This document shows positions 6,301 to 49,900 of a stretch of DNA of 64,000 nucleotides, in pieces (within the stretch, counting starts at the first letter, position 1; every line of letters starts with the position of its first letter). The notes below the pieces were generated by a model that worked only from the letters and a program-made list of their open reading frames with translations, searched no databases and was not told where the DNA came from. The stretch covers positions 6,677,999-6,741,998 of the forward strand of contig JABBOT010000015.1 in assembly GCA_016165875.1 (NCBI GenBank). The letters are read 5' to 3'. This stretch comes from Acanthopleura granulata (Eukaryota > Mollusca > Polyplacophora > Chitonida > Chitonidae). The position numbers and the translations under genes were made by a program.

Positions 6301-9300
6301 AATATGTTGTACAATTTTGCATCACTTTTTAATGAAAGTGCTCAGACGACTTACATACTGTCAAGACACTATCAGCGTGATTGTGTACACAATGTAACCC
6401 ACATACATACTCACCAGAGTACGACGTAAAAATACAAGCATACATACATATACCTACATGCTCAGTAGACACTTTCAGCGGGACATTACCAGCATGACTA
6501 CATATGTGTGACCCAAACACACACTCAAACAGACCCACTGCAGGCGTATGACAAACATACGTACTCACCAGACAATATCAACATGATTACACACGTGGGA
6601 TCTAAATACATAGGCACCAGATACTATCAGCGTGATTGCATACGTGTGACCCACGTTCATACTCACCACACACTATCAACATGATTGCATACGTGTGACG
6701 CACATTCATACCCACCACACACTATCAACATGATTGCATACGTGTGACCCACATTCATACTCACCACACACTATCAACATGATTGCATACGTGTGACCCA
6801 CATTCGTACTCACTACACACTATCAACATGATTGCATACGTGTGACCCACATTCATACTCACCACACACTATCAACATGATTGCATACGTGTGACCCACA
6901 TTCGTACTCACCACACACTATCAACATGATTGCATACGTGTGACCCACATTCATACTCACCAGACACTATCAACATGATTGCATATGTGTGACCCAGGAT
7001 AACCCAGCTCATGCTCAGGAACCGGATGCCATGTAAGCAGGTCAGACTTCCGGGGACTTGCGCAGTGCTCAAAATCTTGCTCCCGTTTGTATAAACTGAA
7101 AACGCCACCAAACATCTAACCAGAATGCCTACAAAACAAGCAAAATTAAGCCGTGGAATGATTCAACATGAATTGTATTTTTCATTCTTTTATGCCCGCA
7201 ATATTCAGCGTTTTACATCTTAAATAATCTTATCCATGTCCGTAGGCCAAGCTTATACTTGTCCGCATTTCTGGTGCCAGAAAAGAAACTTGATGTGATG
7301 ATTGGCAATAACATGTAAATTAAATTATGTTATATTAACAATAATTATAAAAATATATTTCTTGTTTTTTTGTTTTTTTTTTACTTCTTGCAAAATCTCA
7401 TGGCATGTAAAACCAGATTTTGTTTTTGCCAAAAATACTGATGCACCTAGCACCACCCTTTAGATTCCGTAGTTGTTATGCTGTCTGTTCGTTTTGTCCA
7501 TCAGCATCACATGTGACCAAAGAAGCACTGTTCGTCAAAGCATTTTTCAACGTGTGGTCTAACCTATATATTCAAAATTCGATAAAATGTCTACAATGGC
7601 TCTGTAAGCGGTTTGAAATTTTTGAACTCAAGGCTATAATTAAACACGATTACATAGCTGAAATCTTCGTTCACTTTTTTACTCAACACTTTCATTCCAT
7701 TTTATAATAAGTAGTTTCTTTTCTTAATTTGTTTTTATCGACTGATCTTTTCCTGGAGTTTCATCTACCCTCAACGTAACAAAAATATATTGATTTATTT
7801 ATTTATCACGTGTATCGCCGTAAAGAATTACTCTGAGTTTTCAGAGTAGGACACCGCCTACACAATTTTTTACCTGACAAACCTGACTTAAATGTTGCAC
7901 AATGCAGCCAGACCTGAATTCGAGTTTAGGTCCGTCTTCATTGGTCTGGGTCTACTGAATGAGCATAACGTTTAACCCGAACAGCAGGAGAATTACTACC
8001 TTTTTTTGTTTATTTCACGAACCTGGTTTTGAGGGTGCCTGTGTAATCTCTGCCCCACCCGAGTGCTCGTTTAGCAGAGCTGTCTTCTCGTCTGGTGGGT
8101 ATCTGTCTGAACCCTTCTCACAGGATCTTAGACAGGCCAGGATTTGGAGGACACAGACATCATAGACGGTGCCCACCAGAAGGAGAAATCCGATGACCGA
8201 ACAAATCACACTGAAAAAACAACACAACGTACTAGTGGACAACACTCGACGACCAAAGCTATCAGAGTGAAAACAACACAACGTACTAGTGGACAACACT
8301 CGACAACCAAAGCTATCAGAGTGAAAACAACACAACGTACTAGTGGACAACACTCGACGACCAAAGCTATCAGAGTGAAAACAACACAACGTACTAGTAG
8401 ACAACACTCGACGACCAAAGCTATCAGAGTGAAAACAACACAACGTACTAGTGGACAACACTCGACGACCAAAGCTATCAGAGTGAAAACAACACAACGT
8501 ACTAGTGGACAACACTCGACAACCAAAGCTATCAGAGTGAAAACAACACAACGTACTAGTGGACAACACTCGACGACCAAAGCTATCAGAGTGAAAACAA
8601 CACAACGTACTAGTGGACAACACTCGACGACCAAAGCTATCAGAGTGAAAACAACACAACGTACTAGTGGACAACACTCGACGACCAAAGCTATCAGAGT
8701 GAAAACAACACAACGTACTAGTGGACAACACTCGACGACCAAAGCTATCAGAGTGAAAACAACACAACGTACTATTGGACAACAATCGATGGCCCACTTA
8801 ACAGAGTGAAAACAACACAACGTACTAATAGGAAAAAAAAAACGGACGAAGGCAGATATCACACCCAAAACAACAAAACTTCTCATGGACAAAAACTGAC
8901 GACCGAACTTATAATTTCATTGGATTTTGATTGGTGTTTTACGCCGTACTCAAGAATGTTTCACTGATGGTGGGGGGAAACCCACAACGCTGGTTGCTGC
9001 CAAACCTTCCCACATACGGCCGGAGAGGAAGCCAGCATGAGCGACCGCATTGGTGGGAGACTCCTGGGTCAATAACCGACTGAGCCACCGAGACCCCTTA
9101 TCACACTGAAAACAACATGACATACTAGCAGATCTACATCGATGACCGAATTTATCACACTCAAAACAAGACGATGTATTGGTGGACAAAAATTGACGAC
9201 CGACCTTATCACATTGAAAGCATAAAAAACTGACCAGTATATAAAAACCCGGAGTATGAAACAGACCGAACTGATAAGGTACATGTAAAAAGCAAGCTTT

Positions 9301-12300
9301 TAGCAGGGTCTAAACCACGATGACCGGATATAATATAAGGCAAAATTTGATGACCAAGCAGCCAAATGTGGAAGGAAAGCATTCCGCCCGTAGAGAAAAA
9401 GCCATGAATGTTTCAAGATACTACATTATAAGCCAGACGACGAAAAAGTGATCTGTACATAAAAAAATGAGGACTAAACATATTATGGGAAAAGTTAGCG
9501 AACTCTAGGCCTACAAAAATTTAACATTAAACATACCGCATTAAAAACAAACACAAATCAATAAAATTTTACATATTTGAAAAAAAGCCGACAAAAGGCA
9601 AATGCCATTATAGGGTGTGCTTCACAGAAAAAGTACCAATTAGTACATAATGACGACTAAACAAACTGGGCAAGCACTAGCTGGTCAAATCCGATGGTCG
9701 AACCTAATCCCACACAGTATAAGCTTCGCTTTTGAGGTTCCAGGCGTTCATATTTCCTGCACCCATAAAAATCACCTTCGTATACATAAGAGAAAAATTC
9801 TTGTGTACGGCGCCAAACAAACCTGAATGTTCCGTTGGCACTTACATGGCTGCTATTGCCCGCCCGTCGGAAGCTAGATCCAAGTGTTCAGGACAGCTGA
9901 CCGAAACAGGCGGTGCTGACGTGTTTAGGGGAAGGAGCGACATGGCTGCAAGGATAACGGCATAACTGGTTTAATTTACTATCGACAAGTGCTTTTTTTG
10001 AAAATAATGATGGCATCTTCAAGAAATACTGTTGACGGCCATATAGAGAGCAAATGTATTTAAGCTGACCCATCCGAGGCAAACACCGGAGCAATGGTAT
10101 GGTGATATCAAATACTGGACTAAAAAAAATAGGAAATATGAAGATACCTTACACTAATAAACCACCCTATATACGACTGTAGAAAATACCTAATTTGCTT
10201 AATTTGGTAACAGGCAATGATGAGAACCCGTGATCTATATAAATACCGATACAGACTTTAGCAGAATTGAGCTGATGTAAACATAACACCTGATGACGCT
10301 AAAGGTTTTTGCTAAGATATTCATTAAATACATGTACATTGTCTGATGTATGAAATTGCATTATAGATCATTCTGGATGCTACTGGTCATTCTACATGGA
10401 CGTGTATATAAATGTTACTCGAAATCTTAGGTTATGGCTTCTAATGAAAAACTCGTAAAACTCCATCCCGGCTAGAACAAATGGGTACCAAGCCGTGTGC
10501 TCCTTTGTTCTTTCTTGGATCACGTCAGACTTACGGTTGCACGTGTGCTCAGAAAGCACTAAGGTAGCACACAAACACTGGCGCGTCACAGCAGAAAGCG
10601 ATGTGTTTCTCTGCGATTTGAACCCTTTTGTGTAGGACGTCAGAGTCTCCCATGAACATAATCAATTTAAGTATTTCCAAGAATTTCAAGGACCAGTTTT
10701 TCGTTTACTAATTTTAATTTAAAACTTGTCAGTATCATTTATGCATCTTACCTCTATCGAGAAGCCCTATGACGTCACGCTGAGAGCACGAGCGCGGTAC
10801 ACACATTCCAATCATCAAGCCCATTGACATGAAACTGGGTGCCTTTTCACAGAACAAAGAAGACAACTGTTTCTAGGATAAACTCTCGTTTCACAAAACC
10901 TCACACTGTTTCGTATTAGCATCTGGCATCCAGGGAATGTCTGCTACAGGAGGCTTTCTGTTTATTTATCTATTATTCATTTCATTGCTCACTTAAACAA
11001 CCGACCTTTGACAAGCTAGTCCTGAACTTTTCCACACGTGAAATACAGACATTGACGCATGCGCCATATTGCTGAAAATCAAGCTGTTTTCAGCTAATGT
11101 TAGATAGCGCAAAAGGTCATTCGCCCACATACTGTCATGTAGCCTCGACAAGCATTGAAAATCTACCATTTCATTGTGCAAGCCTTGTTTTGAACCCGCA
11201 AACCACTAACAATCACACAATTAGGGTTGGCCACCTATCCAATGCCACCTGAACGTTAAAGGGACTATACTTAGCCTAGTGTAGTTATTATAGGTTACAT
11301 ATGCCCAGTTCGACCAGTTTGGCTCCAAATTGATGAGTGCTGGAGCACCGATTGGATAATACTGCCACACAGAAAGTCTAAGTTGTTGATACGCTGTAAA
11401 TTTCTAAACTGTTATTTTACACCCAGTTAAAATATATCTCTTTGCCAGGGGGACTACCCAATCCACCTGGAGGTAACCAAGAGGACAAAATGCTATTACT
11501 TCACTTCCAGGAGCAACAGCTCAAAACATGTTGGTCATGCTACGTTGGTTTTTTTATATGATGTGGAGAAAAGTCGAAGCTGTGTGTGATGGCATGGCAT
11601 ACCACCATTCGAAAGTTTGGGGATATATATTTTAGGGGCTGAAGTTGACAAATTTACTACATAAATAGTAAGGAGAACCAATGCGCTCGTGTAACGTATA
11701 AAGTCACCTGCTGATTAGGGGAATCCCCGCCTGTTCCGCCAAGCGGTATTTGCGCTGCACAGTACCGGGTCGTCAAGGTCCTCTGTTGGCCGTATGATAT
11801 GTTGAGGGTAGCGGAGATTTTCAGACACTCAGTATATGACCCTAACCAAAACCTGTTCCCAAACAACACTCCACTGGGTAACTTCCCTTGAGAGTCCAGG
11901 ACTGTAATTAATTCATTAATTAATTGTTGTAAGTATGTACAGGTGTTGCCTTGCGTGTGTATATAAATATAATATATTGATATATTGCGTATTTATTTAT
12001 GTGTCTTTAAGCTTTGTATAAGACAAGAATCAGCTTTGATTTGTTTAATATCTTAAAAGAGGGAGATTTTGAGCCATAATTATTTATTTATTCGGTTGGT
12101 GTTGTACGCCGTACTCGATATTTCAGTTATACAACGGCGGCCAGCATTGTGTTGACCAGCAACCAGGCAGAGCCCCGCAGACACCCAAGGCCATTGGCAC
12201 ATAGCTGGCAGACCTTCCCACGTACAGGCGGAGAGGAAACCGAAGTGAAATGGACTTGAACTCACAACGACGGCATTTGTGACAGGCTCCTGGGTCATTA

Positions 12301-12843: not shown

Positions 12844-12903
12844 GGCAGAGGTATTTGCCTGGCGTCTCAACTTACGAATGATTACACAAGTTTTGAACCC
12901 ACA

Positions 12904-12912
12904 TTATATACA
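12904..12912 (-). promoter_or_regulatory. Candidate TATA box of gene A
   Basis: A TATATAA-type string on the minus strand, about 65 bases upstream of the gene A start codon. Gene B has a weaker TTTTAAAG at a similar distance from its ATG, which supports a shared promoter layout. Confidence 0.45.
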
Positions 12913-13159
12913 GATCTCTGCGCTTTCAAAAGTACTACGTGCACATGCCCCAGGGGTGATATGTAAACAGCGTCTAAGACCGTCGTGTGACCCACATTTG
13001 TGACTTATGCAAAAGTACATGTATTCCTGTATAAACAAGAGTCTGTGCAAACACCATATTAGTTTTAAATAACCTGGGTTCAGAATGTAGGAACATACAT
13101 GTACTTACCCAGCTCAACTGTGTCATTCATACATGTCATGCGTCACTGATTGTCTTTTG

Positions 13160-13342
13160 CCAGCTCATGCTAGCTTCCTCTCCGGCCGTACGTGGGAAGA
13201 TCTACCAGCAACCTTCGGATGGCCGTGTTTTTCCCCCGCGCTCTGTCGGGTTTCATTCCACCATAATGCTGGCCGTCATCGTATAAGTGAAATATTCTTG
13301 AGCACGGCGTAAAACATCAATCAAATAAATAAATAAATAAAT
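13160..13342 (+). mobile_element. SINE family 1, headless
   Basis: CCAGCTCATGCTAGCTTCC to a fourfold AAAT tail, upstream of gene A. Confidence 0.78.
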
Positions 13343-13611
13343 TGTCCTTTGATAATTGATCAAAAGAGATTGTTCAGATGAACAGGTTCAGCTCAATACT
13401 GACTGATCAGCTTCGTCAATACTGAAAACTGTTCACTTCTTCCCTTTCCAAGAATCTGTCCTTATTACTTACCTTATATACTGTCTTAATTCTTTTGGTG
13501 GTTTCATGTGAACAATCTTTTGGAAACAGATCTTGTGATTATTAACCCGTAGCTTCCACTATGGTTGACGGCTGGTATACGAATGTCGGGTTCGACGCCC
13601 CGAGCGTTTAT

Positions 13612-13760
13612 TCATTTACTGATCTGATTGGTGTTTTACGCCCTACTCAAAAACATTTCACTTATACGACGGCTGCCACATTATGATGGGAGTAAACCGG
13701 GTTCAGACCGGGGGAAACTCACGGACATCCGCAGGCTGCCGTTAGACCTCCCCGCGCAAG
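13612..13760 (-). mobile_element. SINE family 1, fragment
   Basis: TTGGTGTTTTACGCCCTACT to GACCTCCCCGCGCAAGGACG; the head is missing. Confidence 0.7.
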
Positions 13761-13854
13761 GACGTTCCGAGTACGGTCAGTTACTATATTACTTGCTTTA
13801 ACTGATATGGGTACTCGTAAGCGAATGTTGACAAATTGGCCACGCACAGAGATG

Positions 13855-14310
13855 TCTGTTATAGACTCAAATTTGTTGTGGCGCCCCTTAGAGTGTTAAT
13901 AGATATAGGTTTGCTTTGGAGCCTCAGGGTTTTTATACACAATCATAGATTTGTTACGATTTGTGTGACGTCCCTTTGGCTTTGCAGGCATATATTTGCA
14001 GTGGAGTCCCTTAGAGCTTAGCAGACAGATTTGCTGTGGTGTTCCTCAGAGATTTAGAATACAGATTTGCTCTGGAGCATCTTAGAGTTTGTGCAGACAA
14101 AGATTTGCTGTGGTACCCCATTAGAGGTTTTGCTGACATAGATTTACTGTAGAGTTCCTTAGGGCTTTTGCTGACAGATTTGCTGTGGAGTTCTTAGAGC
14201 TTTCGAAGGCAAATTTGCTGTGGAGTCCCTTAGTGCTGTTGTAAACACAGGCTTTTATAGATACACATTTGTTATGGAGTATTTAACGGCTTTTAAGACT
14301 TCAAATTTGC
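13855..14310. repeat. Degenerate minisatellite between genes A and B
   Basis: About ten imperfect units of 40-50 bases around AGATTTGCTGTGGAGTCCCT followed by TAGAGCTTTTGCAGACA. Identity between neighbours is low. It does not resemble an exon of either flanking gene. Confidence 0.75.
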
Positions 14311-14869
14311 CTGTTTCTACATGCTGCATGGCAATTCCGCATTACATGTAAATCATTTTGTTTTGCTGCGCTAGATCACCTTTCCTTCGAACTTACATGT
14401 AAGTTTACTGAACGGTTTATATATATTTACTTACAGCTTTTTATTTGATCGCTATTTGACGCACCATATTCTACCTGAGTATAACACACAATACAGAGTG
14501 TCTGAAGGTATCTATCGCCCTTCGCCAAGTAAATGACAACCCAACCCTCATCCTCCCCTCCTCCTTTTTAAACGTAGGACCGACAAGGGATGGGTTTGAA
14601 TCCACGACTCACCGCATTGTCGGATCTGAATTAATTGGCCTGCATGTTGACCCACTTAATTGTTAAAGGGCACTCACAAATCCTCCGTGCGAGGATTTCC
14701 TGCGAACTCAGAAATTGACCTTTATACATAGCATTAAATAAAAGGATGAATGGGCTAACAATGCCTCGTTTTGGGACGAGAGCGTGGTGATCAGGTATTT
14801 ATATTGGTCCGTTCATTTCCTCAGACTGGCACATGTACCTCAGTTATTAAAGCCTGAGGGTAGCCTCTG

Positions 14870-16861: not shown

Positions 16862-19800
16862 ATGTTTTCCTGTCTGCATTTTCTCGTCTTGACCACAGCT
16901 TTTCCTGGGCTCGTGGCTCAGTTCATTGAGCCCGGTCGCGTCGCCTTATTGGAAAACATCGGCCCTGACCTTGTGGAAGAGTTTGGGTCTCTATTGGAGG
17001 AACATTCTCGGACGGTCCGACAACTGTGGAGTCACGTGCCCTTCAGCTCCAAGCTTCAAGACGTCATCGCCGATATCTCTTCTTCTAACGAGGGTGGGGA
17101 TTATTACCACAGACTGGCGCTGGAGAATGGAGTTACTTCGGAAGACGCGAATGACAACGTCTCCATTGCCTGTGTCAACGACACGAACACCTACATCATG
17201 GGGATTGTGCCACCAGCGAAACAGTGGGCTCTTCGAAGTAACATTATATATTTGTATACACCTTTTAACGAATTGCAGATTATATTATTTATTTGTTTAT
17301 TATTGTTTTATTATCATTGCACAAACATTATAGCAATATCGTAGCAAATTTTATGTATACCTTTATGTTCGGGTTTGTGTAATATACTGGTGAAATTTGT
17401 CAATGTAATGTGTGTCTTTGCAAGGAAATACGAAGCAGAGATTCTAGTTTAAATATCTAGTTTAGATACAAATACATACATTAGCAATATACACCATTAA
17501 TATGCTTCATAAAGCCTATAGTTTGTAATCATAATATTTGAGTGTATTTAATTTCACTGAAAACAAGATCTTAACGAAGAAGTGAAGACATTTTCAGAAA
17601 AAGTCTTCAATGATCTTATTGCCGCGCATTTCATTTTCAACTTTCTCATAATTAAAAACGTAATTTTAATGAAGATATGAAAGTTTTGTCCAGGCACCCA
17701 TGTCAAAAGAACTGAGTTTCGATAATAATTTCAACAATTAACAAAGTATATGTTTACAGTGTTGGGATCACAAGGAAAGCTACCCAGTGGAGTCTTGCTC
17801 TAGAATAGGTTTTGGACACGATCGTACACAGAATGCTTGAAAGCCTCCGTCTTGGGGACTTCTTACTGCGTCGCACAAAGATCAGGGGTGACGGTAATGA
17901 TTAAACTGAACCATTGGTTTTGTTCAAAACAGTGGTTTGTAAATATGAAAGAACACAACAAAGAGAGTAAAACCAGATCAGCGACGACCGTGTGGCACAC
18001 CTAACCCACGAAATCCCGACTCGGCGGATTTGGTGGCTGTGGAAAAAATATTCCAATAATTATCAAATGATTTATTTACAGTGTTGGACTCACAAGGAAA
18101 GCTACCCAGTGGAGTCTTGTTGGGGAACAGGTTTTGGCTAGGATCATACACAGAATGTTTGAATGCCTCTGTCTTGGAAACTCGTTACTGCGTAGCGCAA
18201 ATATCACTGGGTGTGCCGGACGCAGAATCGCACAATCTAAAGGTAAACGGTTATAATAAACAATGCCCTTTTGAGACAAAGAATCCATCCTTTACCTACC
18301 TAAGCAAGACATGACCATCGTCAATATCTGTCGTTTGCATACTCTCTAAAAACGACTGTGTACACAGGCACTCAATCTAGAAACGACTGTGTACACAGGC
18401 ACTCAATCTATGACAACGTTGAACATTTACTCTTGTGTACTAGAGATCTGAAAATTGTGTACTTGAGAAACATCATTCCTTTGGATTATACACATGGTTG
18501 TGTACCTCTAGTATGCAAAATTGTAGATGTTCAGTTTTGTTACAGCTTGTGTACCCCTAATATACAGTCGTTTTTAGAGAATAATTAAGCATAAAACGAA
18601 TCACTGATTTAATTATGGATATATTATATTTCTTTGTGAACTGGAAAGAGTTCGCTAGAAAACCTGGTAGTTGAACTATTTAAGAAACAACACATTGTCA
18701 TTCAAAATACTGGATGCGAGGTAAATTGTAGCTGTGTGACATTTTGTGAGGCAAAAATTTATTATGGAAATATTTTTCTCGTTTTTGTTTGCTAAAAGAC
18801 AAGCGGTTTCCTGTCAATGGGCTTGATGATTGGCATGTGTGTGCCGCGCTCGTGCTCTCAGCATGACGTCACAGGGCTGGTCGATAGAGGTAATACACAC
18901 AAATGACATTGGAAACTTTTGGCATTGTTCTAAAATAAAATTAGTTTATTTCCGGCGGAGCCTGGTATACAGGGTTTCCATTTCCTAGAAATTCTTGAAA
19001 GTTCTTAAATTGGTAATGTTAATGGGATACTCTGACGGGCTACACAAAAGGGTTCAAATCACAGAGAAACACATCGCTTTCTGCTTCGAAGCTGCAATGT
19101 TTGTGTACTACTTAAGTGCTTTCTGAAAACACGTGTAACTGGAAGTCTAACGTAATCCAAGAAAGAACATAGGAGCACACGGCTTTGGACCCGTTTGTTA
19201 AAGGCGGGAAGGAGTTTTAAGAGTTTCCCATTACAAGCCATACCATACGATTTCGAGTAATATTTATACACGTGTACATGTAGCATGATCGATAGCATCC
19301 AGCAATTCCATCTATCAGACAACATACATGTATTTAGCACAGATGATTGCTTTAAGCTTTAGCGTCATCAACGGTTATGTTTGGTTGAGCTCAGTTCTGC
19401 TAAAGTCTGTATCGATAATCACAGAGATCACGGGCACTCATCATTACCTGAAACCAATGGCGTCTGGTATACTGGTTAACTCTTGAAATTTTTGAAAATA
19501 CTTGAAATTAATTAAACGGTTTTCAAGGCCTTCAAATGCCATTAAAAACAATTTATTTTGGGAAAAATCTTTACAGTGCTTGATATTTTTCAATGTTAGA
19601 TATCGTAATGCATTACAGATATGTTCATCATGAACTGTTAAGTAAATTACCGAAATGGTTTTAATTTATTACCAAACGAAGGCTCGTAGTTGAACTGAAT
19701 GGTCATTGAAACTGCTAGGACACGCGATCTTTGGAAGTCCTTGAAAAACTTTTTGTTTTTCATCATAGGGGCATTGAACACAATCTTCAGTGATGCAAAT

Positions 19801-22800
19801 ACATACCCTCGACAAGAGTAAAAGTGATTGAAAGAGACATGCGCTTCAATCAACGGCTGTGCTAGCTGTACCGCTGTTTTCCTGGATGAGCATGAAATAA
19901 AGTGATGTGTCTTCATTTCTCTGATCATTTTCATAATTAGCGCTAGGAGCTAATGCATTCATATACTAATTACCTGGCATAAGATATACTGACTGCCACA
20001 TAAGTTACGGATATCAAGTCCATTCGAGTTAAATAATATGTCGACAAAGCTGCCGTTCACTGTAGTCTTCTTCTTCTTCTAAAACATATCTTCCCTCCAT
20101 TTGATTGAGTCCTCCTGCTCCCAGAAGCTCTTCCAAACCTACAAAAACCAGACTGCAAGAGAGCCTCTGGAAAACTTTCTCTAAAATCCAGAAGCTGCAA
20201 ATTTAGTCCCCCTTAGCTTTACAACACTGTGACGCTTGCAGTCCATGTTAGAATCAACAATTGGTTTTGTTGAAAACTGTGGCTTATAAATAAGAGAACA
20301 CAACAAAGAGAATAAAATCAGAATTCAGACGACCGTGTGATAGCTAGCAACTCGTTCCACCTAACTCATGAAATGTGGCCTCTTGACAGTTCACCTGGGT
20401 CAGGGTTTCAATCCAACTGTAGATGCTTAAGAATCAAAAACTTATACCCCCCCTATAGCACCACAACTGAAGCCGAAATTTGGTTTAAAAAATGCCGTGA
20501 TCTCACTAGTATTTTGTTAGACGTCACTGGCCTCGGAAGATTTTGTTTTCCGGCTTGAGTCTGCTTCTTTCTCACTGAAATATAAAATCGCATCCTTAGG
20601 CATGAACTCCATTAAAACAATGTAATACAAATGAAATCCTTCTCACATCAAAAGTTTCAGAGGTGGGTTTCTGTGATTGCATGGGATTTCAAAGGTTTAC
20701 TCCAAAAATATTTATCTTAAATGTACACGATTTTGGCCGGATAGATGGGTAGAAGAGACCGAGCAAAGTTCGATGAACTCCACGACCCCTCAAGACCACT
20801 ATTCATAAAGTACCTGACAAGTTCTCTGATTGACTGATGATTGTTTCTTAGCGCCAAACTCAAGGCATTTGCTGCTTATACCATATGGGGAACAGTTTTA
20901 CATTTGGAGGAAAAGAGAGTGGACGAGGAAAACCACAAGTGTAATTAAATTACTTTAATTACATAATTACTTGTGGGAGAGAAGCTATCTTCAGTTAACT
21001 TCAGAGAGCATCGTGTCCCGTTCGACGTCATGAACAGTTGGTAATCTAGAACGGATATGGTCAGTTGTGTAAATTTTTCCTTTTAGCGGTGTCCCTTCTC
21101 CCCGTGAACGCATCAGCATTGCCCGTGTCCATTAGTTGCCGTGAAGACCTGGAGCTGTCCTCCGATACACGGGCAATAGCAGCCATGTAAGTGCCAGCGA
21201 AAAACCCATCTGTTTATACCATTTACTGTTTCACCTTCAAGGGAAAGACCACTCAAAAATGTTTCTATAAGTCAAAAAGACACTTTTTTTCTTCACCAAA
21301 TTAAACGCACTCAAATCTTCCGATTATATGCTGGGTTTTATGAACAATATCGATAAAATTAGTTTACCAACGACTTTCGTAGATATCTGTTAAGTTACCA
21401 ATTTTGCCTACTAGGTTGTAGGATGGTTGTATTTGTTTATTTATTTCATTATGAGGGAAAGGAAACCGGTCAAACCTCGTGGAAAAGTCATGAACATTCA
21501 CAGGTTGCTAAAACATGATAGTAGATGGTATGTACATCGTCATCTACTTTCAATGCTGAAAGCAATATTTTATTACATTTATTTGCCGCTAAATATGAAC
21601 TTTTTGAATGGACATTTTTTTTTTTCGCTCTTGCAACTACATGGTGGTTACTTGTATTGCTTTGCGGAAACCAGAATGCCGGAGTGAACAACGTTCGGCT
21701 TTCTGCCGCGGGTACCTGACCAGATTACTTTTCCCAGTGATTTTCCTTGCTATTTATAGACTAATGTTGTCAATTGTAACCCCAAAAAGAGAAATGCCAG
21801 AGGCACTAAGCCATACGAACACCTGCTGCTCGGAGTTTTCCCTACAACATATGGGAAAGGGGAGCCTCCGTGGCTCTGTTGGTTATGGCTTTAGCGCAGG
21901 GCAATGACCCCGAAGCCTCTCACCAATCAGGTCGCTGTGAGTTCAAGTCCAACACATGCTGGCTTCCTCTCTGGAAGTGGGAAGGTCTGCCAGCAACCTG
22001 CGGATTGTCGTGGATTTCGCCCCCTATTCTGCCCAGTTTCTTTTCACCATAATGCTGACCGCCGTCTTATAGGTGAAATATTCTTGAGCGCGTCGTAAAA
22101 CGCCAATCAAAATAAATAAATAAATAAATAAATACAACATACAGAAAACTCAACCTTACATGGACACATTTTTTGTACCTTTTGTTGCTGGAAGTGATGT
22201 ATTAGCTTTTTGTTACCTTGGTAACCTTCAGGAGTTTGGGTATTAACCGTGGCAAAAAGTTTTCTGTTCCATCTAAAGCAGACAAAAAATTTTGATATAC
22301 TTTAACTACTTGTGAAATAACAATGAATAATTTATGGAGTATCAATAATCTGTAATGTCTGTGTGACAGTATTGCCCAATCAGTGCTCCAGCACTGTTCA
22401 ATTCAGAGGCAAATCTTGGACTCATTTGGTCGAAATGCACATGTGTAACCTTAACAGCCGCATCACACAATGTTGTTTCTTTGGTAGGCTGAATTGCCCG
22501 CGACTCTGTTGATTTGTTCACACCGCATCATATTCAGTCATAATGTTGCTTTTTTGTTTTGCTGATCAGTTGTTCTTGCTCTAAAATAATCTATTCGGCT
22601 ATGTATTTTTGTCCGTTTGTCCGCTGTTTTGTTCTTTATGTAGTATACATTCACTCACCATGGCTTTTATCAATTGGCCATTTCCTTTTGTACTGTGTCT
22701 GGGTGCCATGGATGTATGTACAGTAATATGACTGTCATCGGTTTTCATCTCTCTGTTATCAAATCTTTTATCTACTGCAGTTTTTTTTGTTTTGTTTTTT

Positions 22801-25800
22801 TTTTTGTTTTTTGTTTTTGCTTTCAGTGTAGTGTGTTCGATCATCGGATTTTGCGTTCTGGTCGGTACCCTCTATGATGTTTGTATCCTTCAAATCCCGG
22901 CCAGGCTGAGTTCTCGAGAGAAGATAACAGGACAGCACATCCAAGACGACCTGACAGCTCTGATAAACAATGGTGATTCATCAGACAAAAGCAAGGGGGG
23001 GATTCTTCATGTGCAGACACAACCAGGTTCGTACGTGGAGTAAATAAAGAAATTTTAAGGATACGTGAAACGTTTGCTTTTTTTTTTATTTCTTAATAGA
23101 CGATTTTATGATGTGTCCTATATAAGAATGGGAAAAAAAGCTTTTCAGCTTTCCTCTTTAGGCGTAAATATGGCTTCAAACTAGTTTTCCTAACGGGGAA
23201 ATGAGGGAAATGAGTCCCAATGAGGGGAGATAATCTGCCCAAGTAATAATTTCATTAATGACTTCATTTCCGAAAATTTCCGACCATTAGCGAAAAATAA
23301 AGAATAAAATGACGCGGTTTCCAAACACTGTGTGTGCTTGCAGCATACTGGTTCTAAGCGTTCAAATGGACATACCAGGTATAAATCATTATCGGCATTC
23401 CGGGTCAATGATCGGAAGACCAATTATCAAAACAACGTCCAGTACAAACCATCAAAAAACTGAGAAAGTATACAGAGTAAGAAATCAGGGCCTATGCAAA
23501 GAGAAGCACTCAACAGTTTTCAGTGATGACAGAATGCTGTGGACAAAAGACCATTTTCCAAAACACGAACATTCAATACAAACCACCAAAAAGCTAAGAA
23601 AAATATACAGAAATCAGAGTGGATGAAAATAAAAGCACATTGGTTTTCAATAATTACAGAAAAACGCAAGGATTGCAGTAGGCGAAAAAGACGCCATGCA
23701 CTATGTTAGTTTATGAGTGATGCCTTAATCGAAAGCTGTATCTAAATCGTGCTTGATTTCAACTGATCAAATATCTAACATGGTGATCTTTCAAAACGAT
23801 GAAGATACGTGCTTGTGATGGCGGACAATGGTGTTACATTCCAAAGTTGCTACATTACAATGGTTTTACATTCCAATGGTGCTACATTACAATGGTACAA
23901 CATTACAATGGAGTAACATTACAATGGTGAACTAAGAGCAATGTTAACTTGACACTAGGGAAGTGAATGTGACGAAAGGACTGAATCAATTACAAAAGCT
24001 TATCATTTTAAAATGAATGAAGAACATAATTGAGTCGATTTGTGCTGTATACATTCCAGGCATTCTCGCTAGGTGTTTGTTGGCGTTTTCTGTTTATTCA
24101 AACGGGAGCAAGATTTTGAGCACTGCGCAGGTCCCCGGAAGTCTGACCTGTTTACATGGCATCCGGTTCCTGAGCATGAGCTGGGTTATCCTGGGTCACA
24201 CGTATGGAATCATGCTGACCTTGTCTGGTGAGTATGTATGTGGGTCACACGTGTGGAATCATGCTGACCTTGCCTGGTGAGTACGTATGTGGGTCACACG
24301 TATGGAATCATGCTGACCTTGCCTGGTGAGTATGTGTGTGGGTCACACGTGTGGAATCATGCTGACCTTGTCTGGTGAGTATATATATGGGTCACACGTG
24401 TGGAATCATGCTGACCTTGTCTGGTGAGTATATGTGTGGGTCACACGCATGGAATCATGCTGACCTTGTCTGGTGAGTATGTAGGCCTATGTGGGTCACA
24501 CGTATGGAATCATGCTGACCTTGTCTGGTGAGTATGTATGTGGGTCACACGTGTGGAATCATGCTGACCTTGTCTGGTGAGTATGTATGTGGGTCACACG
24601 TATGGAATCATGCTGACCTTGTCTGGTGAGTATATATGTGGGTCACAAGTATGGAATCATGCTGACCTTGTCTGGTTAGTATGTATGTGGGTCACACGTA
24701 TGGGATCATGCTGACCTTGTCTGGTGAGAATATATATGGGTCACACGTGTGGGATCATGCTGACCTTGTCTGGTGAATATATATATGGGTCACACGTGTG
24801 GAATCACGCTGACCTTGTCTGGCGAGTATGTGTGTGGGTCACAAGTATGGATTGTAGGTATGCAACCACGTTGACCGTGTCTGGTGTGTACATATGTGTG
24901 CCACACGTATGGAATCATGCTGACCGGGCCTGGTGAGTATGTATGTAGGTCACATGTATGCAACCATGCTGATAGAGTCTGTTGAGTATATATGTGGGAT
25001 ACACGTTTGCAATCATGCTGATAGAGTCCGGTGAATGTGTGTGTGTGTGTGTGGGGGGGGGGGGGGTTCATACGTATGCAACCATGCTGATAGTATGGTG
25101 AGTATTATTGTGGGTCACACGTATGCAACCATGCTGATAGAGTCTGGTGAGTATGTATGTGGGTTATACGCAGGCAATCATGCTGGGCCTAGCGGTTTGA
25201 TTGTCTGCCTTGAGGTAGAGAGATAAGGGATCAATCCCGGGTCGAGACTCGTCCTGCCATAAGGACACACAGCATATAAATCTGTTTCGCAATGTACTGA
25301 AAAATTAAGAACGACACATACGCCTTAGAATACATACATGCGTTTAAGCAAACTTGCTAATGGTGTCTGGTGAGAATCTATGAAGGTCACACGTATGCAG
25401 TCATGCTGAGAGTGCCTGGTGAGTACGTATGTGGGTTATACGTATGCAGACATGTTGATAATGTCTGGTGAGTATGCATAAGGGTCACTATAGGCCCATA
25501 GGTCACCTAGGCCTATGCAGTCTTGGCGATAGTGTCTGGGGAGTATCTATTTGGATTACGTGTCGTCAGTTATCCTATGAAATATTCCCTTGTCCACAAT
25601 AAGACATATTGCAATACGGCATAATATCCATGCAAATGGGACAATCAGTCCTGTATCTATCGACAACATACCTACATGGCACCAATCTGTTGTTTTCTAG
25701 GAGGGCCTCCGTCGCTCAGTCGGTTAGCACGATATCACAGCGCAATGACCCAGAAAGCCTCCCACCAATGCGGTCGCTGTAAGTTAAAGTCCAACCCATG

Positions 25801-28800: not shown

Positions 28801-31800
28801 CAGCACAATGAACCAGGAGCCTCTCACCGATGCGGTCAGTTCAAGTACAGCTCATCCTAACTTCCTCACTGGCCCTACGTGGGAGGTTTGGCAGCAACCT
28901 GCGCATGATCATACGTCTCTAGGTTTCCTCCCACCATAATAGGCCTACTGGCCGCCGTTGTATGAGATATTTTGGAGTACAGTGTAAACTCTACGCAAAT
29001 AAATAATTAAATGTTCCAAAAGGAAGCTGATAATATGTTGCGTAATAAATTACGAATGATTCAAGGCAGAAATGGCTGATACCCTTTTTTGACTGCAGTG
29101 CATTTCCTGGGGCTGGTACCTAGCCAACGATATGCAGTTTTACGTCATCAGTCCTTTGGTGCTTATTACGCTACACAGGTAAGTTATCAAGACTAAACTG
29201 CTCGGTGATTAGGATGCGCGCACATGTAGCATAGTGACGGTATTCTCAAGATTGCCTGCTGATCAGGTGATATATTCTTAATATATATCTCGGTTATTAT
29301 CTACTCATAGCGATCATGTTGGTAGGATACATTGTTAGCAGTCAGCTTGGTTCGTTATATTTTCAAGTTGGTATATACCTTGACAATCAGCTTTATGCAA
29401 GATTTTGTCAAATTGGTATATCTTGACAACATATTGGATATTTTCATGTTATCATACTGTTGCAATTAACCCCTTGATTATATATTCGTAAGTTGGTATA
29501 CCTTAACAATAAGTTTGACGCATGTGGTATTTTCAAGATTGTGTACCGTAACAAGCAGATGGCGCATGATATTTCCAAGTTGATATACGTTTGAAATCAC
29601 CTGGACGCATGCTATTCTCAAGTTTGTATATACCTTGACAATCAAGTTGAGTTAAAATGGTCAGGTTTGTTCTCGGATTGTTTGATCGTCTCGTGATCAA
29701 AGAGGTCGCATAATTATTGCTATAGGTAATGTTATTATTGTTCCGCTATTTACAAGTTCTTTTTTTTTCTTTTTTTTTGTGATCTCCCCATCCAGGTCAA
29801 AGGTTGCCGGGACCGCCGTTCTCATGGCCCTCCTGACGGGTTCATTTATAACCACGGGGGTGATCAGCTCTGTCAACAAGCTCCCACCCAACGGTATTGA
29901 CCTGAACCAAGATATCACGTAAGACATGATATAAAGTGTTCCCGTCAAACATTCATATTTATACAGTGGAACCAACATAATCTGATAAACGAAAACTCCG
30001 CCTAAATGCAAAGAATTCCCCAGAACAAAACCAAATTGTATTCAGTCTCAGTGTTTTTACATCGTATATTTGCAAATCTTTTATATGAAAAGCTCTGTTA
30101 ATGGGAAGGCTTTGAGCCCTGAAGTTTGGGTTAATTTCCGGGTAATCGCATAAAATCACATTCTGAAAAATCCATCCATGCGCGCAAGCCTCCTCGATGT
30201 AATACCGAAAGTTTAATTCTAGTGGTCCTAAACTTAAATAACCACTAATAGTGTCACATCAGAAAATGTAGAGGACACCACTTATATGAGATAGTACATT
30301 ATTATTACCTTTAATCTAAATTGGGGGCCTCTGTGGCTCAGTCGGTTAGCACGCTAACGCAGCGCAATGACCGAAGCCTCCCATAAATGTGGTCGCTGTG
30401 AGTTCAAGACCAGATCATGCTGGCTTCCTCTCCAGCTTCCTCTCCAGCGGGAAGGTCTGCCAGCAACCTGCGGATGGTCGTGGGTTTCCCCCGGGCGCGG
30501 CCCGATTTCCTCCCACAATAATGCTGGTCGCCGTCGTGTAAGTGAAATATTCTTGAGTACGGCGTAAAACACCAATCAAATAAATAAATAAATCTAACCT
30601 AATATCTTGTCCAGTATTTAAGCTATCTAAATTTTGTACAAGACTTTAACGACAAAGTCGAAGTTTTTGTCGAACAAACCTCAAAATGATGGTTATATAC
30701 AAAAAAAAATAAAATTTCTTCCTTCATCGCAAGACTTTAACAATAAAAAAAAACAACTGCTTGGACTCTTACTGTGCAAATATATGTGCGCCAATCAACA
30801 TTTTGGTGGCGGTGCACACCCATCCATGTGAGTAATAAGAAGTATTGTTGTTTTAATTTTAAAGTAAACCGAACCTGTACCAGGATTTGTACTACGAGAA
30901 GCCGTACTGTCGTATCGGACCGTACCTGGTCGGGATGGCCGTGGGCTACATACTGTACAAGACGGGCTCCAAGATCAGTTTGTCAAAAGTATGTCAGCTT
31001 ACAGTGAGCATTCTAATCTTTACTATAGGCTATTTTGTTTTCAGTGTGAAAATCTAACGGAAATTAGGTCGATTCAATGAAGCTACGTTTTACCTAAATC
31101 CCTGAAACTGAAACAAAATTCATTAATTATTCACCGGTATTTATTCATTATTTATTTAGTATTGTGACTTTTGTGACCTCGGCCCATGGATTGTCCTGGA
31201 GGCCGAAATTGTTTATAGGCCACATCCTATGTTTGTTTTAAGAAATTAACATACGCAGTCAGTTGACTGACCCTGTTTACTTTTGTAAAATCAGTAATCA
31301 CCGCTTAAGACAATATCTGTTGGTTTCCTTTTTTTCCGTTCAGAAATATGTGGCGTTGGGCTGGCTGTTGGCTTTCACGTGTAACTTGGCCGTACTTTAT
31401 GGCCTGTATGGACACTTCAACACAGAACCGTTGACGTCACACGTCAGCGCCCTCTACAATACTGTGTCCAGGACGGTATGGGCGCTCGGATTGGCCTGGC
31501 TGGTCATCGCTTGCTCTTCAGGAAACGGAGGTAAAATAACAGGCTCACCACACTCACCAAAATGGGCACCAACCTCAGTCCAGAGTCATACCTGTTGCCC
31601 TCGTTTCCATCTGGAAAGTTAAACGTCGGAACAACTTGCTTCTCCTGGGAAGTCTGGTTGTCTTCAAAGCTTTCATTTGATCGATGGGATATAGATGTAA
31701 AACTCATTGTAGGCCTATTCTTGTGTATAAGTACTCTAATAAGCACTACATCAGATCTTGTCTGGTTATCATTTGATGGGCTCATGTTATCGGTTCACTC

Positions 31801-32871: not shown

Positions 32872-34959
32872 AACATTGACATTGAGTCCTAAAACCCGCA
32901 TTCTCAGAGTTCGATTGTCGACTCGTCGAATTCCACTTGAAAGCAATTTTACCATTCGACAAAGCGCATCATCTGAAACTCGGCTTTGTATAATTAAGCA
33001 CTGGATACACAGATGCATCTATAACTGGTGACCATTTATGCTTGTTGATATCTTGCCAAGACCTGTGACACATATGTAACCAAGTTGGAGTGATGTTCTG
33101 TTTCGGCTGTTTGGACATAGTTTTTCATTACTGCTTGCGCACAGAAGGCACACCTGATTGTAATTTTTTCAAGCAGTGCTCACTGAGGAGAAGGATGAGG
33201 AACAAGACGTAAAATTCAGTTTTTGTGATTGATTCCATTGAAGGACATTTAAAAGACGTTGGGATGAAAACGTCATTTTTCCGTACGTTTAAATACTGAT
33301 TAATAGGCCTTGATATTAACCTTATTTGTTTCGCATTGATTTATGCAGAGAAAGACTTCCCAAAAATGATGTTATCTTGAGTAATTAAAAAGAGTTCTTG
33401 AAAATATCTTTTCGAGTTTTTTTTCAACCAAATTAAATACAGTTAGAATGTTCTGATTGCATGCATGATGGGCTTTATAAGCCATACTGATAATGTGGTT
33501 CTCCAGTCACGCCGATTGTCCAATGATAAAAACTCCGCAAAAAAAAGCCGACGTCGAGTTTCGATTCCGTTAAGTTTTGAAATTATAGATACCACTTCTT
33601 TAAATTAAAAAACAGCTCATGACCGACGAAGTGTTAATTAAAAATATTACAAAATTCCTCTCTTGAATGCTATAACCTGTTTGAATTTGCATGAATTCGC
33701 TTTTGAACTATCTTCGTTTGAAGTGTGGAGTATTTTGCTGCCTGCATGGAATCTGAAGGCGTCGATGCTTTTAAGGGTTATGGGAGATTGACCAATGACA
33801 GAGCTAGGATATATCAGCTGATTATAAACGTATAAATCTTCTGAGTTCACTGTCAATGTAACGTAATAACACAGGCACAGGACTCTGCTTTTTTGTTATA
33901 TATTTTGATTATAACAAGTACATGTTTGAACAACACAAGTATTCCCAGGCCACTGTGTTGTTGCGGCAATAAGTTTCTTCACCATTTTATGTCATAAATT
34001 AACAAATATACTTAAGTTTCAACCGCAACCCTAATTTTTTCCGGCAGTCGGTAGACCTTAGACTGTTGTTCTTGATGTAGCGACTATCGGAAATCACGTC
34101 TTTTGAACGTTATTTTGCGTTTTTACTCATGTCTCGCCCAAACAGCGTTAATCTCTAAAGCAGATTTCGGCTTATTAGTGCGCATTGAAAGTAATCTATA
34201 CATGCAGGGAGACAGGCCTACATGTTCGTAAGCTTTTTATGTTGTAAGTACAGACCTAGTAACAGTCTCTTTTCCTTCTTCTTAACCTGGAACCTGTCTT
34301 TCTTCATTCTGGCATCTCTTTCTCTCACAATTACAATCACTATCCATTACCTTCTTCTATATTTGTGATATAATGAAGTAAATAGAATTTATATTAGATA
34401 GTGGTTTGTCAGTGCTAAATCTGCATCATGAAATGCATGCTTATCTATATATGGTAACTAATATCTAATGAAGTCATTTTTGTCAGTTGTAATGAATATA
34501 GAATAAGGCGAGTTTGTCTGAGATTACCTTTTGTTAGGTTAAAAAGTCAGCTAAGGATAGTTATAGTCTCATTACCTCTATCTTCCGCGCGCGATATCTG
34601 TGAAGGGGAGGTAACCTTACATAACCTTGTTATGCCGACATGTCACATAAGGATAGTTATAGTCTCCGAGCGCGAGATCTGAGAAGGGGAGGTAACCTTA
34701 CATAGCCTCATTGTGACGACCTGATATTTATAGTCTCATTACCTTTTATCATTTTGTGCAGTGGATTGATAAGGGTGTAGTGGATTAACAAAAGTAGTTG
34801 AGCATTTCATTAATATGCTTTGATGTCATTATATTTCCTGTAGATGATATTTTCTTTGATTTTGAATACCGCATTTAGCAAGTAAATGTCGCTTTCTTAG
34901 CAACTATAGATGGTAATTATTTCCTGATAATAAATTTTGTTCAAATGCTGCTGTATTTA
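32872..34959. other. Gene B 3' flank
   Basis: AT-rich with no convincing gene. A candidate ATTAAA for gene B lies near 33384. It contains the duplication at 34552-34725 and otherwise nothing recognised. Confidence 0.5.
34552..34725 (+). repeat. Two-copy tandem duplication, about 100 bp
   Basis: AAGGATAGTTATAGTCTC and GAAGGGGAGGTAACCTTACA occur in both halves, separated by GCGCG-containing sequence. No coding content. Confidence 0.7.
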
Positions 34960-37211: not shown

Positions 37212-38425
37212 CCTTTAGACAGAAAGAATATGTTTCTGAAAGCCGTAAGGTCCGGGCTGAACTTGCGAGCTTGTTAAGAGATGTCATCCCAAAGTTCTGC
37301 TTCATACATATGTATCATAAATGATCTTTTCCAGAAAAAAATATATCCTACATGTAAGGATCCTTCCCGTGGATTAGCAAGGCAGTTCCGGAATGACCAT
37401 CCAGAAGCCAATGTTAACAGGTTAATTACCAAATTGGCTTGTACCGATGAAGAAATCTTGGCCTTATCAGCAGCAACAGTTGGTCAACCTGGGACTGAAA
37501 CTTGGCACCAACGCCAAGGGCGTATAACAGCCAGTGATTTTTCAAGAACTTACACACGAACTGAAGGTCTTGAAAGAAAAGGCCGAAGACACACTAGCAC
37601 TTGTTAAACATATAATGAGGTTACACTAAATTTTACTTGTCGGCTGCCATGAAGCATGGTATATCACAGGAACCGCATGCTAAACTGGCCGGAACTATCC
37701 CGGAAAAAGCATCGTGTATTTGTGACAAAGGATTCTTCATTGTGGATCTGCAAAGACAAGCCGTATATAAGAGCTTCCCCTGACCTCCTTGTTTCTTGTA
37801 AATGCCATCGCGAAGGACTTTGTGAAATAAAATGTCCATACACCATAAGAAATGAGGTACCCTCCCCAATCACCTATCGGCATTTGACAGACACAAATAG
37901 CAAAACTTCCCTGTCTCAGAAGTCACCATACTTTCACCAAATGCAGGGACAAATGGTGTCTCAGGGCTCGAGGACTGTGATTTCTTTGTATTCACAAATA
38001 ATGGACATCACTTAGAAAGAGTGTATTTCAACCCGAACTTCTGGGAAAGCGTGGTTCACAGTTTATCAATTTTTTAGACTGGACATGTTGCTCCTTAGAT
38101 TGTGACTGGTACACTTGATAATGAACAAACTATAAACACTGAGTCAGTGCCAACAGCCTCGCAAATGCGAGATGCAGCGCTCCCGCTTTCAACAACAGTT
38201 GTTTCTGCTCTGAAGAAACCCAAGTTGCCTCTTGTGTATTTATGTGGTATTTGTGGGAAAGATATAGCTGAATTACCACGAGGTTTTAAAGAGGAGAGTG
38301 TAGAGTGCTCACTCTGCAATGTATGGTGCCATTTCTTATGTGCAGTTATATCCGAACATGGGAAGTCTAATGAAGCGGACATTTGGCTTATGTCCAAATT
38401 GTTCATCTTTATGAGAATAGCCCAT
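37212..38425 (+). pseudogene. Decayed YqaJ-like nuclease with C-terminal PHD finger
   Basis: Follows a TTTAG acceptor-like site. In order, across shifting frames: TVGQPGTETWHQRQGRITASDF (YqaJ start, frame of 37281), KHGISQEPHAK (frame of 37649), KPYIRASPDLL and CEIKCPY (catalytic D and ExK, frame of 37656), then DFFVFTNNGHHLERVYFNP (frame of 37979). After stops, a PHD finger follows (CGICGKDIAELP, CSLCNVWCHFLC), whose last CPNC pair needs one more frame change near 38380. At least three frameshifts plus stops make it a pseudogene. YqaJ is a lambda-exonuclease-type PD-(D/E)XK nuclease, and invertebrate YqaJ-PHD proteins are usually transposon-linked. Confidence 0.75.
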
Positions 38426-38565
38426 TTACATCCATAACTGAATTTATGCTTAACTAAGAGATATTTGATTCACATTGCTGGATTTCTTTGCAATGCAATG
38501 CAATGTATTCATGAATTTCAGAAATTTTTTAAGCTAATGACTGTAGGACCTTTATCAAAATTCAA

Positions 38566-43938: not shown

Positions 43939-43960
43939 GTTCGTCGTTCAAGTAGTCATC

Positions 43961-46900: not shown

Positions 46901-49900
46901 GAATTGATGGGTTTGGAAAAGAGTTGATGAATTCCATAAAGTTTGACCACGTTAATACTAATACCATATAAATACCAATGTACATGTGTTAGATTAGCCC
47001 TGGAAAGCTATTCAACACCTTCAGTTTACAAATAATTCTGTTCATTAACATCTCAACAGTTTCAGATCAATTTCAAACTGCAAACAACTGGGCATTAGAG
47101 GTTTTACTCATGCCAACACACTTTGCTCGCTCTGACACAGTGGTGAAAACATTGTCAAAATAACGTGGGGAAGTTAATAAGGGACGGCCTCATGAGTCCA
47201 AAACTAGGTTTCGTTAAAGTTCATAATGTACATATGTTATGCAATTGTTGTGTAGTAAAACAGACTGTAATTTCTCGTTAGTATAAGCCATAGTTGTCAG
47301 GATATTGTGCAGTGTTGTTCATTTTTCCTATCCCTTCCGGTGTTATCTTTCACCTCATTGTCTGTTTGTCACCGCCTCAAGAAGTATGTGGATGTCTCAA
47401 GCTGGTGAAGTGCTCAGATGTCAGCAGTCTTAAATACACATCAGACATTTCACAGTGTGAAATTAGTCTGATGCTCCCTGTTCTCCATTGATAAAGCTAG
47501 AATATTCATATTCCTGTGCCTTTTTAATACCAAATGTTTGCTGTATATACAGGTTACAGGGCCAGGTTCATTAAGTGGTGGGAGTGGTGAAGGACATTGT
47601 GAGCAAGGTTTTGGAGCCATGTTTTTATACCATTGTTGTTACATGTACAGGTTTCAGGGCCAGTGTTAATACCAGTGTTGTTACATGTACAGGTTACAGG
47701 GCCAGGTCCATGAGGTGGTGGGCGTGATGAAGGACAATGTGAACAAGGTTCTGGAAAGAGGAGAACGGCTGGAGGAACTTCAGGACAAATCAGGTGAGGA
47801 AGATTGAATCTGTTTTTTCTAGATTTTGTCTGTTTTCCTTAAGTTTTGTTTTGTTTCCTCCTAACTTTTTCTGTTTCCTCTGGACTTAGCCATGTTTCCT
47901 ATAAACTCTGCTTGGTTTCATCAAATGGGTGTGGAGTTAGAAACAGCAATTTTTTTTATAAATACTGTAGAATATCTATAATTAAATACATATATTTTAG
48001 CTTTTCCACACACATGTATATAAACTTAAGAGTGACATGTAGGATAGACTTGTCATGGCTTACCAGAGAACTAAAAGTCTAGGGTAAATATCCATATATG
48101 ATATCATTAAGTAGTGTTATGTTAGAACAATCTGTTAGTACTGTATTTGTGGCCAAGGGGGGTAGTTTGCTAGTGCGGCGTTATGACCCCGTGCCTCTCA
48201 CCAGTGTGATCGCCGTGAGTTCTTCCAGCTCATCCTAGCTTCCTTTCTGGCCATACAAGGGAAGGTCTGCCAGCAACCTGCAGATGGTCATGGGTTCCCA
48301 TTGGGCTCTGTCCAGCTCCCTTCCACCATAATGCTGGCCGCTGTCATATAAGTGAAATATTTTTGAGTACGGCATAAAACACCAATCAGATAAATAAATA
48401 AATAAATGCTCTATGTGAACCCAAATATAACTTACATTTTCCCAGTAGGGTGTAACCCTAGTTCCCAAATAAACTGTGAGATATCTTTCTAACTTGAATA
48501 ACTCTCAAAATCTGTTAACATGCTGAAATTTAAGGTCGCACACAGTAATTATTAATGCCAGATATGAAACTGTACTCTCTTTTTGTGGATAGATTCCCTG
48601 GCCACCAACTCTGATATATTCCGCTCACGAGCTACTGGATTACGCCGACAGATGTGGTGGAACAACTGCAAGGTTTGGCTCTCTTCTCTATTTTACATGT
48701 CTCACTTTCTTCATGACTGGGATTCCACTGGCTCATTTAGGACAAAAGCATCACTCTGGCCACAACTGCTCTTGCACCATTCCCCCAAACATAATTACGT
48801 CATCAGTTGTTTGTTGCAACACATTGTTGGCAAAACTGGGTTCTTTTCCTGCTTACTGTGTTACAAAAGAGGGTTCTTCGAGTTGTTGACACACAGTCGG
48901 TACACAACCGGAAAATTCAAGCAGCTCCAGAAAACCGAATAAACAAAGAAGATAACAAAGAAAAATGATGCATTTACACCTGGGCGTTGCACCAACATAA
49001 ATGTTCATAAACATAATAGAGGAGTTTCGAGCTCAAACACTCTTGTGGCAAAGTGTAAAAAGATTTCAGCTGTATCCTGTGGCTTGTCAAAAGTCAGGCA
49101 ATATTGTTCACAATAAATTTATTGATCACCTGTCTCACTGTGTTATGGAGGTACAAACAACCTTTCCTTCATTCAGGAGCTTCTTAAATTAAAAAGGTTC
49201 CAGCTCCTCAATTTTTTCCATCGTTCGTCTAATTTAAATAACTTTTTGTGATACTTTTCTTAGAGATAATTGCATTATTCCATTATTTGCTTGCAGGTGA
49301 AGTTGATCATTGCTGTCATTATTCCATTGTTTGTTTGCAGGTGAAGATGATTATTGCTGTCATTATCCCATTGTTTGTTTGCAGGTGAAGTTTTGCTGTC
49401 ATTATTCCACTGTTTGTTTCCAGGTGAAGTTGATCATTGCAGTCATTATTCCATTGTTTGTTTACAGGTGAAGTTGATCATTGCGGTCATTATTCTCATC
49501 ATTATGGCTATCATTATCAGTAAGTACCCTGAATTATCTAACATTTCGTCCATGACAAAACTGTGCATTTTGAATTCTTCTATCGGTTTTCGAAAAGGCT
49601 TTTTGGAAGTTTTGTTTGGATAGTGGGAAGATATCCTGCTGGAAAAGTTTACTTTTTAGCTTCACAAATAATAGTTGAAGCTGTAAATTTCTGATAAACA
49701 TGTACATGAAGTATATCTCCTTGAATGTTCTAAGTGGTTCATTTGATTCAAGCATTGTCCAAGGGGATGATCGTTGACCATGATGCGTGACAGACCAGAA
49801 TCCAAGTTACTTTATGTGGGTTGCTGCTTAAAGTCTGGAGGTTTATCGGATACCACAGTCCTGCAAATCGTGCTGTGCCATTTACTCCAGACTATCCAGT

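Follow-up and report, generated by a model that had tools for sequence, protein, structure and literature searches.

Splice-junction minisatellites in three genes of the chiton Acanthopleura granulata, with matching donor arrays in two paralogs

Tandem repeats that span exon borders have been described in lancelets as 'mirages', at the Adh3, BflGb6 and BflGb9 globin, troponin C and PGBD5 loci (PMC3087553; PMC3902484). In the lancelet globins, splicing is reported to be undisturbed, copy numbers differ between two haplotypes and the mechanism is described as unclear (PMC3087553). In human IFI6 (6-16, G1P3), downstream units of a minisatellite act as splice donors (PMC4526556). Internal tandem repeats at exon–intron boundaries of human duplicated genes have been linked to novel introns and alternative transcripts (PMC2812944), and a duplication that crosses an intron–exon boundary is known to copy the splice signals (PMC4974935). 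We analysed repeats of this kind in a window of 64,000 nt from the chiton A. granulata (GenBank assembly GCA_016165875.1, contig JABBOT010000015.1, forward-strand positions 6,677,999 to 6,741,998; coordinates below count from the first letter of the window). It holds two inverted paralogs, genes A and B, of a nose-resistant-to-fluoxetine (NRF-6) type acyltransferase, together with VAMP4 and BiP. No molluscan splice-junction minisatellite appeared among the matches listed from titles and abstract beginnings in open-licence PubMed Central, and the parts seen of reports on hemocyanin introns (PMC7931591) and on worm intronic minisatellites (PMC4039745) describe no border-spanning repeats.

For each exon border of the four genes, a 48-base window across the junction was aligned to its own flanking intron, up to 1,600 bases, which was feasible for 68 of the 71 borders. 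A junction-spanning copy lies in the border's own intron in six cases, with scores of 96 (gene B exon 6 donor), 91 (gene A exon 6 donor), 76 (acceptor of the VAMP4 anchor exon), 64 (VAMP4 exon 4 acceptor), 61 (gene B exon 2 acceptor) and 42 (gene A exon 5 acceptor). The other 62 borders score 20 or less, leaving a clear gap below the six positives, and the weakest of these, gene A exon 5, was unmatched in 300 dinucleotide shuffles (maximum 36). A candidate remnant of the same acceptor array at gene B exon 5 was not significant (18 of 300 shuffles were as good). Two donors and four acceptors are copied; four of the cases (exon 6 of A and of B, exon 5 of A and the VAMP4 anchor exon) are arrays of at least five copies, and the remaining two consist of one or two partial copies. 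A preliminary description of this DNA had reported six exon edges copied in three genes, in repeats that include the splice border, with two donor and two acceptor arrays and with BiP free of them, and all of this was recovered. It had also presented the gene B exon 2 case as a whole-exon copy; the exon is indeed duplicated together with its acceptor, but over 125 of its 161 bases only. In BiP (59442-55526, minus strand), neither the border test nor self-comparison found a junction copy: self-comparison gave no local duplication, and a low-threshold Tandem Repeats Finder (TRF) run, which fills the gap left by self-comparison for short-period overlaps, gave one trivial row (two 10-bp copies within an exon).

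The chiton repeats are of the kind already known from lancelets. As in the mirages, the repeat unit crosses an intron–exon boundary, on the donor or the acceptor side, many but not all copies keep their AG or GT, and several genes of one lineage are affected. The two systems belong to different phyla (cephalochordate and mollusc), although lineage has no part in how the structure works. Normal splicing and length instability have been reported for the lancelet loci, whereas the chiton arrays are known from one DNA sequence. What is distinctive here is a layered array, common to two paralogs, in a mollusc. The likeness to IFI6 is that repeat units adjoining an exon supply several splice donors; two downstream units are truly used there, whereas use of the chiton copies is predicted to give a stop codon nearly always. 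With the human duplicated genes the window shares internal tandem repeats at borders but shows no novel intron, and with the boundary-crossing duplications (PMC4974935) it shares the copying of splice signals, except that the chiton copies are located within introns that already exist, and genes A and B both keep the same 13 modelled exons.

All of this presupposes that the borders and the arrays are genuine. Exon joins were placed from splice signals, phase and the A–B comparison, for gene A (12843 to 361, minus strand) and gene B (16862 to 31530, plus strand), both modelled without the last exon, for VAMP4 (45359 to about 50090, plus strand; first exon not found) and for BiP. The reading frames of A, B and BiP stay open across the modelled exons, and that of VAMP4 up to its last join, where the frame check shows the last-exon acceptor at 50052 (plus strand). 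Proteins of another chiton, Liolophura sinensis, continue uninterrupted through the modelled joins, which indicates a normal join in another species: the exon 6 joins of A and B are shared with Liolophura P0001 and P0002, respectively, P0001 reads IVICSVIGF across the join of gene A exon 5, and P0121 reads CKVKLIIAVIILIIMAIII across that of the VAMP4 anchor exon and supports the frame of VAMP4 exon 4. The exon borders are thus probably real, given the open joined frames and the chiton proteins that span the same joins. Assemblies often mis-size tandem arrays, and the evidence base is a single assembled DNA sequence. Yet the units differ among themselves in an ordered way, homologous arrays occur in both paralogs and the joins agree with the chiton proteins, so that an artefact of assembly or of wrong exon models is, in our view, highly improbable.

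The two donor arrays share one design. In gene A the last 36 nt of exon 6 (6961..7128, minus strand) form copy 1 of an array of a 49-bp unit that runs, exon copy included, over 6352..6996 (minus strand); its distal units are degenerate and could be traced by TRF and unit extraction to about position 6352. In gene B the last 36 nt of exon 6 (24060..24227, plus strand) likewise form copy 1 of a 49-bp array, at 24192..25550 (plus strand), traced in the same way to about 25550 and in the same phase as that of gene A. In both genes the unit joins 36 exon nucleotides to 13 intron nucleotides. Because unit length, phase and junction are shared by A and B, we infer that the donor array would be older than the split between the paralogs. 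The inner units of both arrays match their own exon best, and the further a unit lies from the exon, the lower is its identity to the exon end (Spearman −0.82 for 21 gene B units and −0.74 for eight gene A units), although the units multiply in blocks and are not independent, so that these rank statistics overstate the certainty. The incompletely aligned units A9–A12, B13, B18 and B20 were left out of this analysis and of that of conservation.

The gene B array is also ordered in its coding states. A diagnostic pair of residues reads TL in units 0–12, TV in unit 14, TG in unit 15, IE in units 16, 17 and 19, and MV, RV, IM and IV in units 21–24 (units 13 and 18 are partial, and unit 20, with GL, aligns poorly). 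At the adjacent residue, units 0–12 and 15 have G, and units 14, 16, 17 and 19–24 have A. In the proteins, the Liolophura orthologue of B has G with TV, and both A-type proteins have A with IV. From outside to inside, the gene B units therefore agree with the succession of states that the protein tree predicts, apart from a local departure at unit 15, and the outermost copies are likely to be older versions of the end of exon 6, as judged from these residues. A stronger claim would be that the gene B intron is a layered archive in which copies have been laid outward from the exon, so that distance orders past coding states (A-like, then with the Liolophura-like pair, then today's); we put this forward tentatively, as possible rather than probable. 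The layered pattern, which is absent from the exon 5 and VAMP4 arrays, fits an exon-anchored array that renews itself from the exon, and it fits an ordinary array decayed at one end as well.

On the acceptor side, the VAMP4 anchor exon (functional copy 49468..49519, plus strand) bears a trace of how its array may have begun. Its array (49273..49495, plus strand; TRF, copies and reading frames) has a 44-bp unit of 24 intron and 20 exon bases and five copies of AG followed by GTGAAG, the last being the real acceptor; one of the five is five bases shorter, AG is kept in all five and no gradient along the units is visible by eye. Each unit begins in the intron with the 8-mer CATTATTC, a direct repeat that recurs at exon bases 21–28. 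Since the 44-base step equals the spacing of the two direct repeats, slippage or microhomology-mediated duplication suffices to explain this array. VAMP4 exon 4 (functional copy 47693..47793, plus strand) is preceded by partial copies of its acceptor junction at 47524..47665 (plus strand; self-comparison and sequence reading), where 47524-47615 matches 47666-47755 over 92 bp at 84% and a further short copy lies at 47651-47665. In gene B, the partial copy of exon 2 with its acceptor (17728..17884, plus strand) aligns over 157 bp at 82% to 18050-18206, the functional exon being at 18082..18242 (plus strand) with an open frame; the copy contains a stop in the frame of the exon, as read from its sequence.

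The acceptor array of gene A exon 5 is built differently. The exon (8023..8210, minus strand; open frame) starts at 8210, and the array (8191..9238, minus strand; TRF and copies) has a 54-bp unit, whose consensus was composed by eye from the array and the exon-like copies, the border score and shuffle test being the evidence for this case. A near-uniform core, of which ten copies are near-identical among themselves (mean 53.2 of 54), adjoins the exon; CAC replaces the CAG of the true site in all ten copies examined, and a TAG nine bases further on may leave some acceptor strength. Older copies, some of them more exon-like, lie past a SINE-like (short interspersed element-like) insertion, which interrupts the array and so would be younger than it. 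This element, at about 8920-9090 (minus strand), has a tRNA-like head and ends near GTACGGCGTAAAACACCAATCA; its family has several copies in the window. We also observed that, over 8015-8797 (minus strand), the reading frame of gene A exon 5 stays open through the 54-bp array; 54 being a multiple of three, splicing to an upstream acceptor could lengthen the protein by 18-residue repeats.

We consider that the six cases are minisatellites with a junction-spanning unit, that is, mirages, which likely began as ordinary tandem duplications straddling a border and are likely tolerated as the site flanking the exon is still used; we give this reading a probability of roughly 0.6. A tandem duplication that happened to cross an exon border would create a junction-spanning unit, of which the exon copy, kept by selection, would be a permanent member and a source of new copies. 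Donor arrays would then renew outward from the exon and their far ends would retain older exon states. For nearly all of the copied sites, use would introduce a premature stop and expose the mRNA to degradation, and the copies would be near-neutral while the true site wins. In VAMP4 the seeding breakpoints would lie in the CATTATTC repeats one unit apart, through slippage or microhomology-mediated duplication; a seed is recognisable in this anchor array only and could not be made out for the other five cases. The identity gradient and the ordered diagnostic codons, from TL through TV or TG to IE and IV-like states outward, speak for this explanation, as do the gap between the six border scores and the others, the spacing of the VAMP4 repeats, the unit and phase common to A and B in an intron 6 that still aligns, the pairing of A and B with separate Liolophura proteins, the predicted stops and the undisturbed splicing reported for lancelet mirages (PMC3087553).

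Several observations weigh against it. As noted above, decay at one end of an ordinary array could also produce the gene B gradient. The exon cannot always have been the source, because the uniform core at gene A exon 5 differs from the exon copy and the VAMP4 units lack a gradient. The mean distance between A and B units, 0.21 (inner) to 0.26 (outer), is below the synonymous difference of 0.363 between the two genes over their coding sequence (in exon 6 alone, 0.32 within the unit and 0.16 in the rest of the exon), and the paralogs may have undergone conversion or been under constraint. Finally, border-bearing events exceed what uniformly placed seeds would give.

This last point bears on a rival explanation, put forward in the preliminary description, in which tandem duplications in this lineage would be seeded at splice junctions by a special process (for example slippage at AG-GT sites or an RNA-templated route, to which R-loops may be added). 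If each in-gene duplication is taken as a unit-sized seed placed uniformly in the gene spans, six of ten such events include a border where 1.24 are expected (P=1.1e-4, post hoc). The excess persists when the A and B donor arrays are counted once (five of nine, P=9.7e-4), or when nine weak TRF rows without a border (score 31-52) are added (6/19, 1.26 expected, P=1.5e-4), and all four arrays with 44-54 bp units include a border (P=4e-5). These probabilities assume independent events and an unselected window, whereas this one was picked for its oddness. Of 13 self-comparison loci, the event list leaves out four pairs read as SINE copies and the two loci at 13868-14237 and 34546-34744, which are outside the four genes and have no modelled border. 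Lancelets, in which the cause is unclear, hold several loci of this kind (PMC3087553), which would favour such a process. A second null model, based on the sequence covered, gives another answer: six of 71 borders fall in repeat footprints when the exon 5 array is taken to its true end (five of 71 with a shorter footprint), and the footprints account for 12.4% of gene-span bases, hence no excess. Nor are borders copied more often than random intron positions: 6/68 borders compare with 127 of 1,500 random intron positions that have a nearby copy. Outside the six arrays, 19 of 1,310 random intron positions have one, 13 of them in regions read as SINE pairs.

The event model suits the question of how arrays originate better, because arrays grow and borders do not. 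The two models disagree, and a seeding process directed at splice sites is not shown. What stands of the proposal is the excess of border events over uniform seeding; the coverage model does not bear it out, and in VAMP4 microhomology accounts for the breakpoints. Moreover, old duplications are easier to detect at borders, since their exon half is conserved, and the borders of BiP are clean. We regard junction-directed seeding as unlikely, though worth keeping in mind beside the ordinary origin that we prefer.

We may then ask what the copied sites would do to splicing. Splice-site-like sequence is retained by the copies of both donor arrays and of the VAMP4 anchor array. Gene B has 13 extra donor-like sites that score at least 8/9, equal to the true donor, whereas the remaining introns of A and B contain two in 20,464 nt; most gene A copies fall one step short of their true donor. 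All 20 alternative donors of gene B that score at least 7/9 lead to a stop, as do 15 of 16 in gene A (the exception, at +12, would add four residues) and all four upstream acceptor copies of VAMP4. Use of the copied sites would thus be likely to feed mRNA decay, as far as the predicted frames indicate.

These counts would suit a second rival explanation, that the copies are selected as decoys or spare splice sites which tune output through unproductive splicing: gene B is unusually rich in strong donors, nearly all alternatives give stops, the donor array has outlasted most of the A–B intron similarity, and in human IFI6 repeat units do serve as donors (PMC4526556). GT is retained in 26 of 29 full-length donor copies, yet among the 11 diverged copies, a small sample, conservation places the GT pair no higher than 16 of 48, so that selection on the donor GT was not supported. 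With the weaker copies of gene A and the loss of AG in the exon 5 core, where the nearby TAG may nevertheless leave some strength, this goes against the idea of decoys or anchors for U1/U2AF put forward in the preliminary description, and we judge selection of this kind distinctly improbable.

Gene B would in any case be a natural test of donor choice among more than a dozen equally good sites, and its layered array may preserve ancestral exon sequence inside one genome. If chitons and lancelets both carry many splice-junction minisatellites, these are no lancelet oddity and their cause becomes open to cross-species comparison. If the layered-archive reading of gene B is true, selection on one unit would make splice-junction arrays self-renewing, and mirages in any lineage could serve as records of ancestral sequence.

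Gene B was also compared with a collection of 5.8 billion proteins, of which 7,995 were scored as candidates. Among the best 120 of 1,057 matches of gene B, the top two are L. sinensis proteins, at 73% and 81%, and the remainder are at about 38-48% and, where named, almost all molluscan. Identity to the Liolophura proteins is 81.5% for gene A (P0001), 80.2% for gene B (P0002) and 93% for VAMP4 (P0121). These values fit a chiton outside that genus, and a lancelet origin, which the mirage literature had suggested, was set aside because the best hits are chiton proteins. In a tree of seven proteins A clusters with P0001 (support 0.953) and B with P0002 (0.965), and because of this pairing the A–B duplication is likely to predate the split from Liolophura. 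Pfam matches are NRF and Acyl_transf_3 for gene B, Synaptobrevin for VAMP4 and, for the last exon of BiP, HSP70; an Rfam scan of the window gave no match.

Seven of the 12 A–B intron pairs show no similarity match at all; in intron 6 an alignment of 487 bases extends through the array. Intron 3 (10204-10692 in gene A and 18983-19457 in gene B) contains a block of about 489 bp that is 80% identical, most other introns having diverged; it could be a conserved non-coding element, a missed exon or an old insertion. Exons 6, 8 and 13 differ by only 6-9% between A and B, compared with up to 29% in other exons, for which constraint or gene conversion between the inverted paralogs are options. A change of coding sequence driven by the array at exon 6 was also considered and is not supported: A and B differ at six of the 36 repeated bases and at eight of the other 132 bases of the exon (P=0.08), and a difference as large as that of the repeated end occurs in 222 of 879 exon windows.

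Two further features lie away from the junction copies. Between genes A and B, at 13868-14241 and distant from modelled exons, there is a degenerate array with a unit of about 36 bp. At 37278-38437 are adjacent open frames, one with a match to YqaJ viral recombinase that clears the cut-off and another with sub-threshold matches to PHD finger models; they possibly belong to a domesticated or mobile gene.

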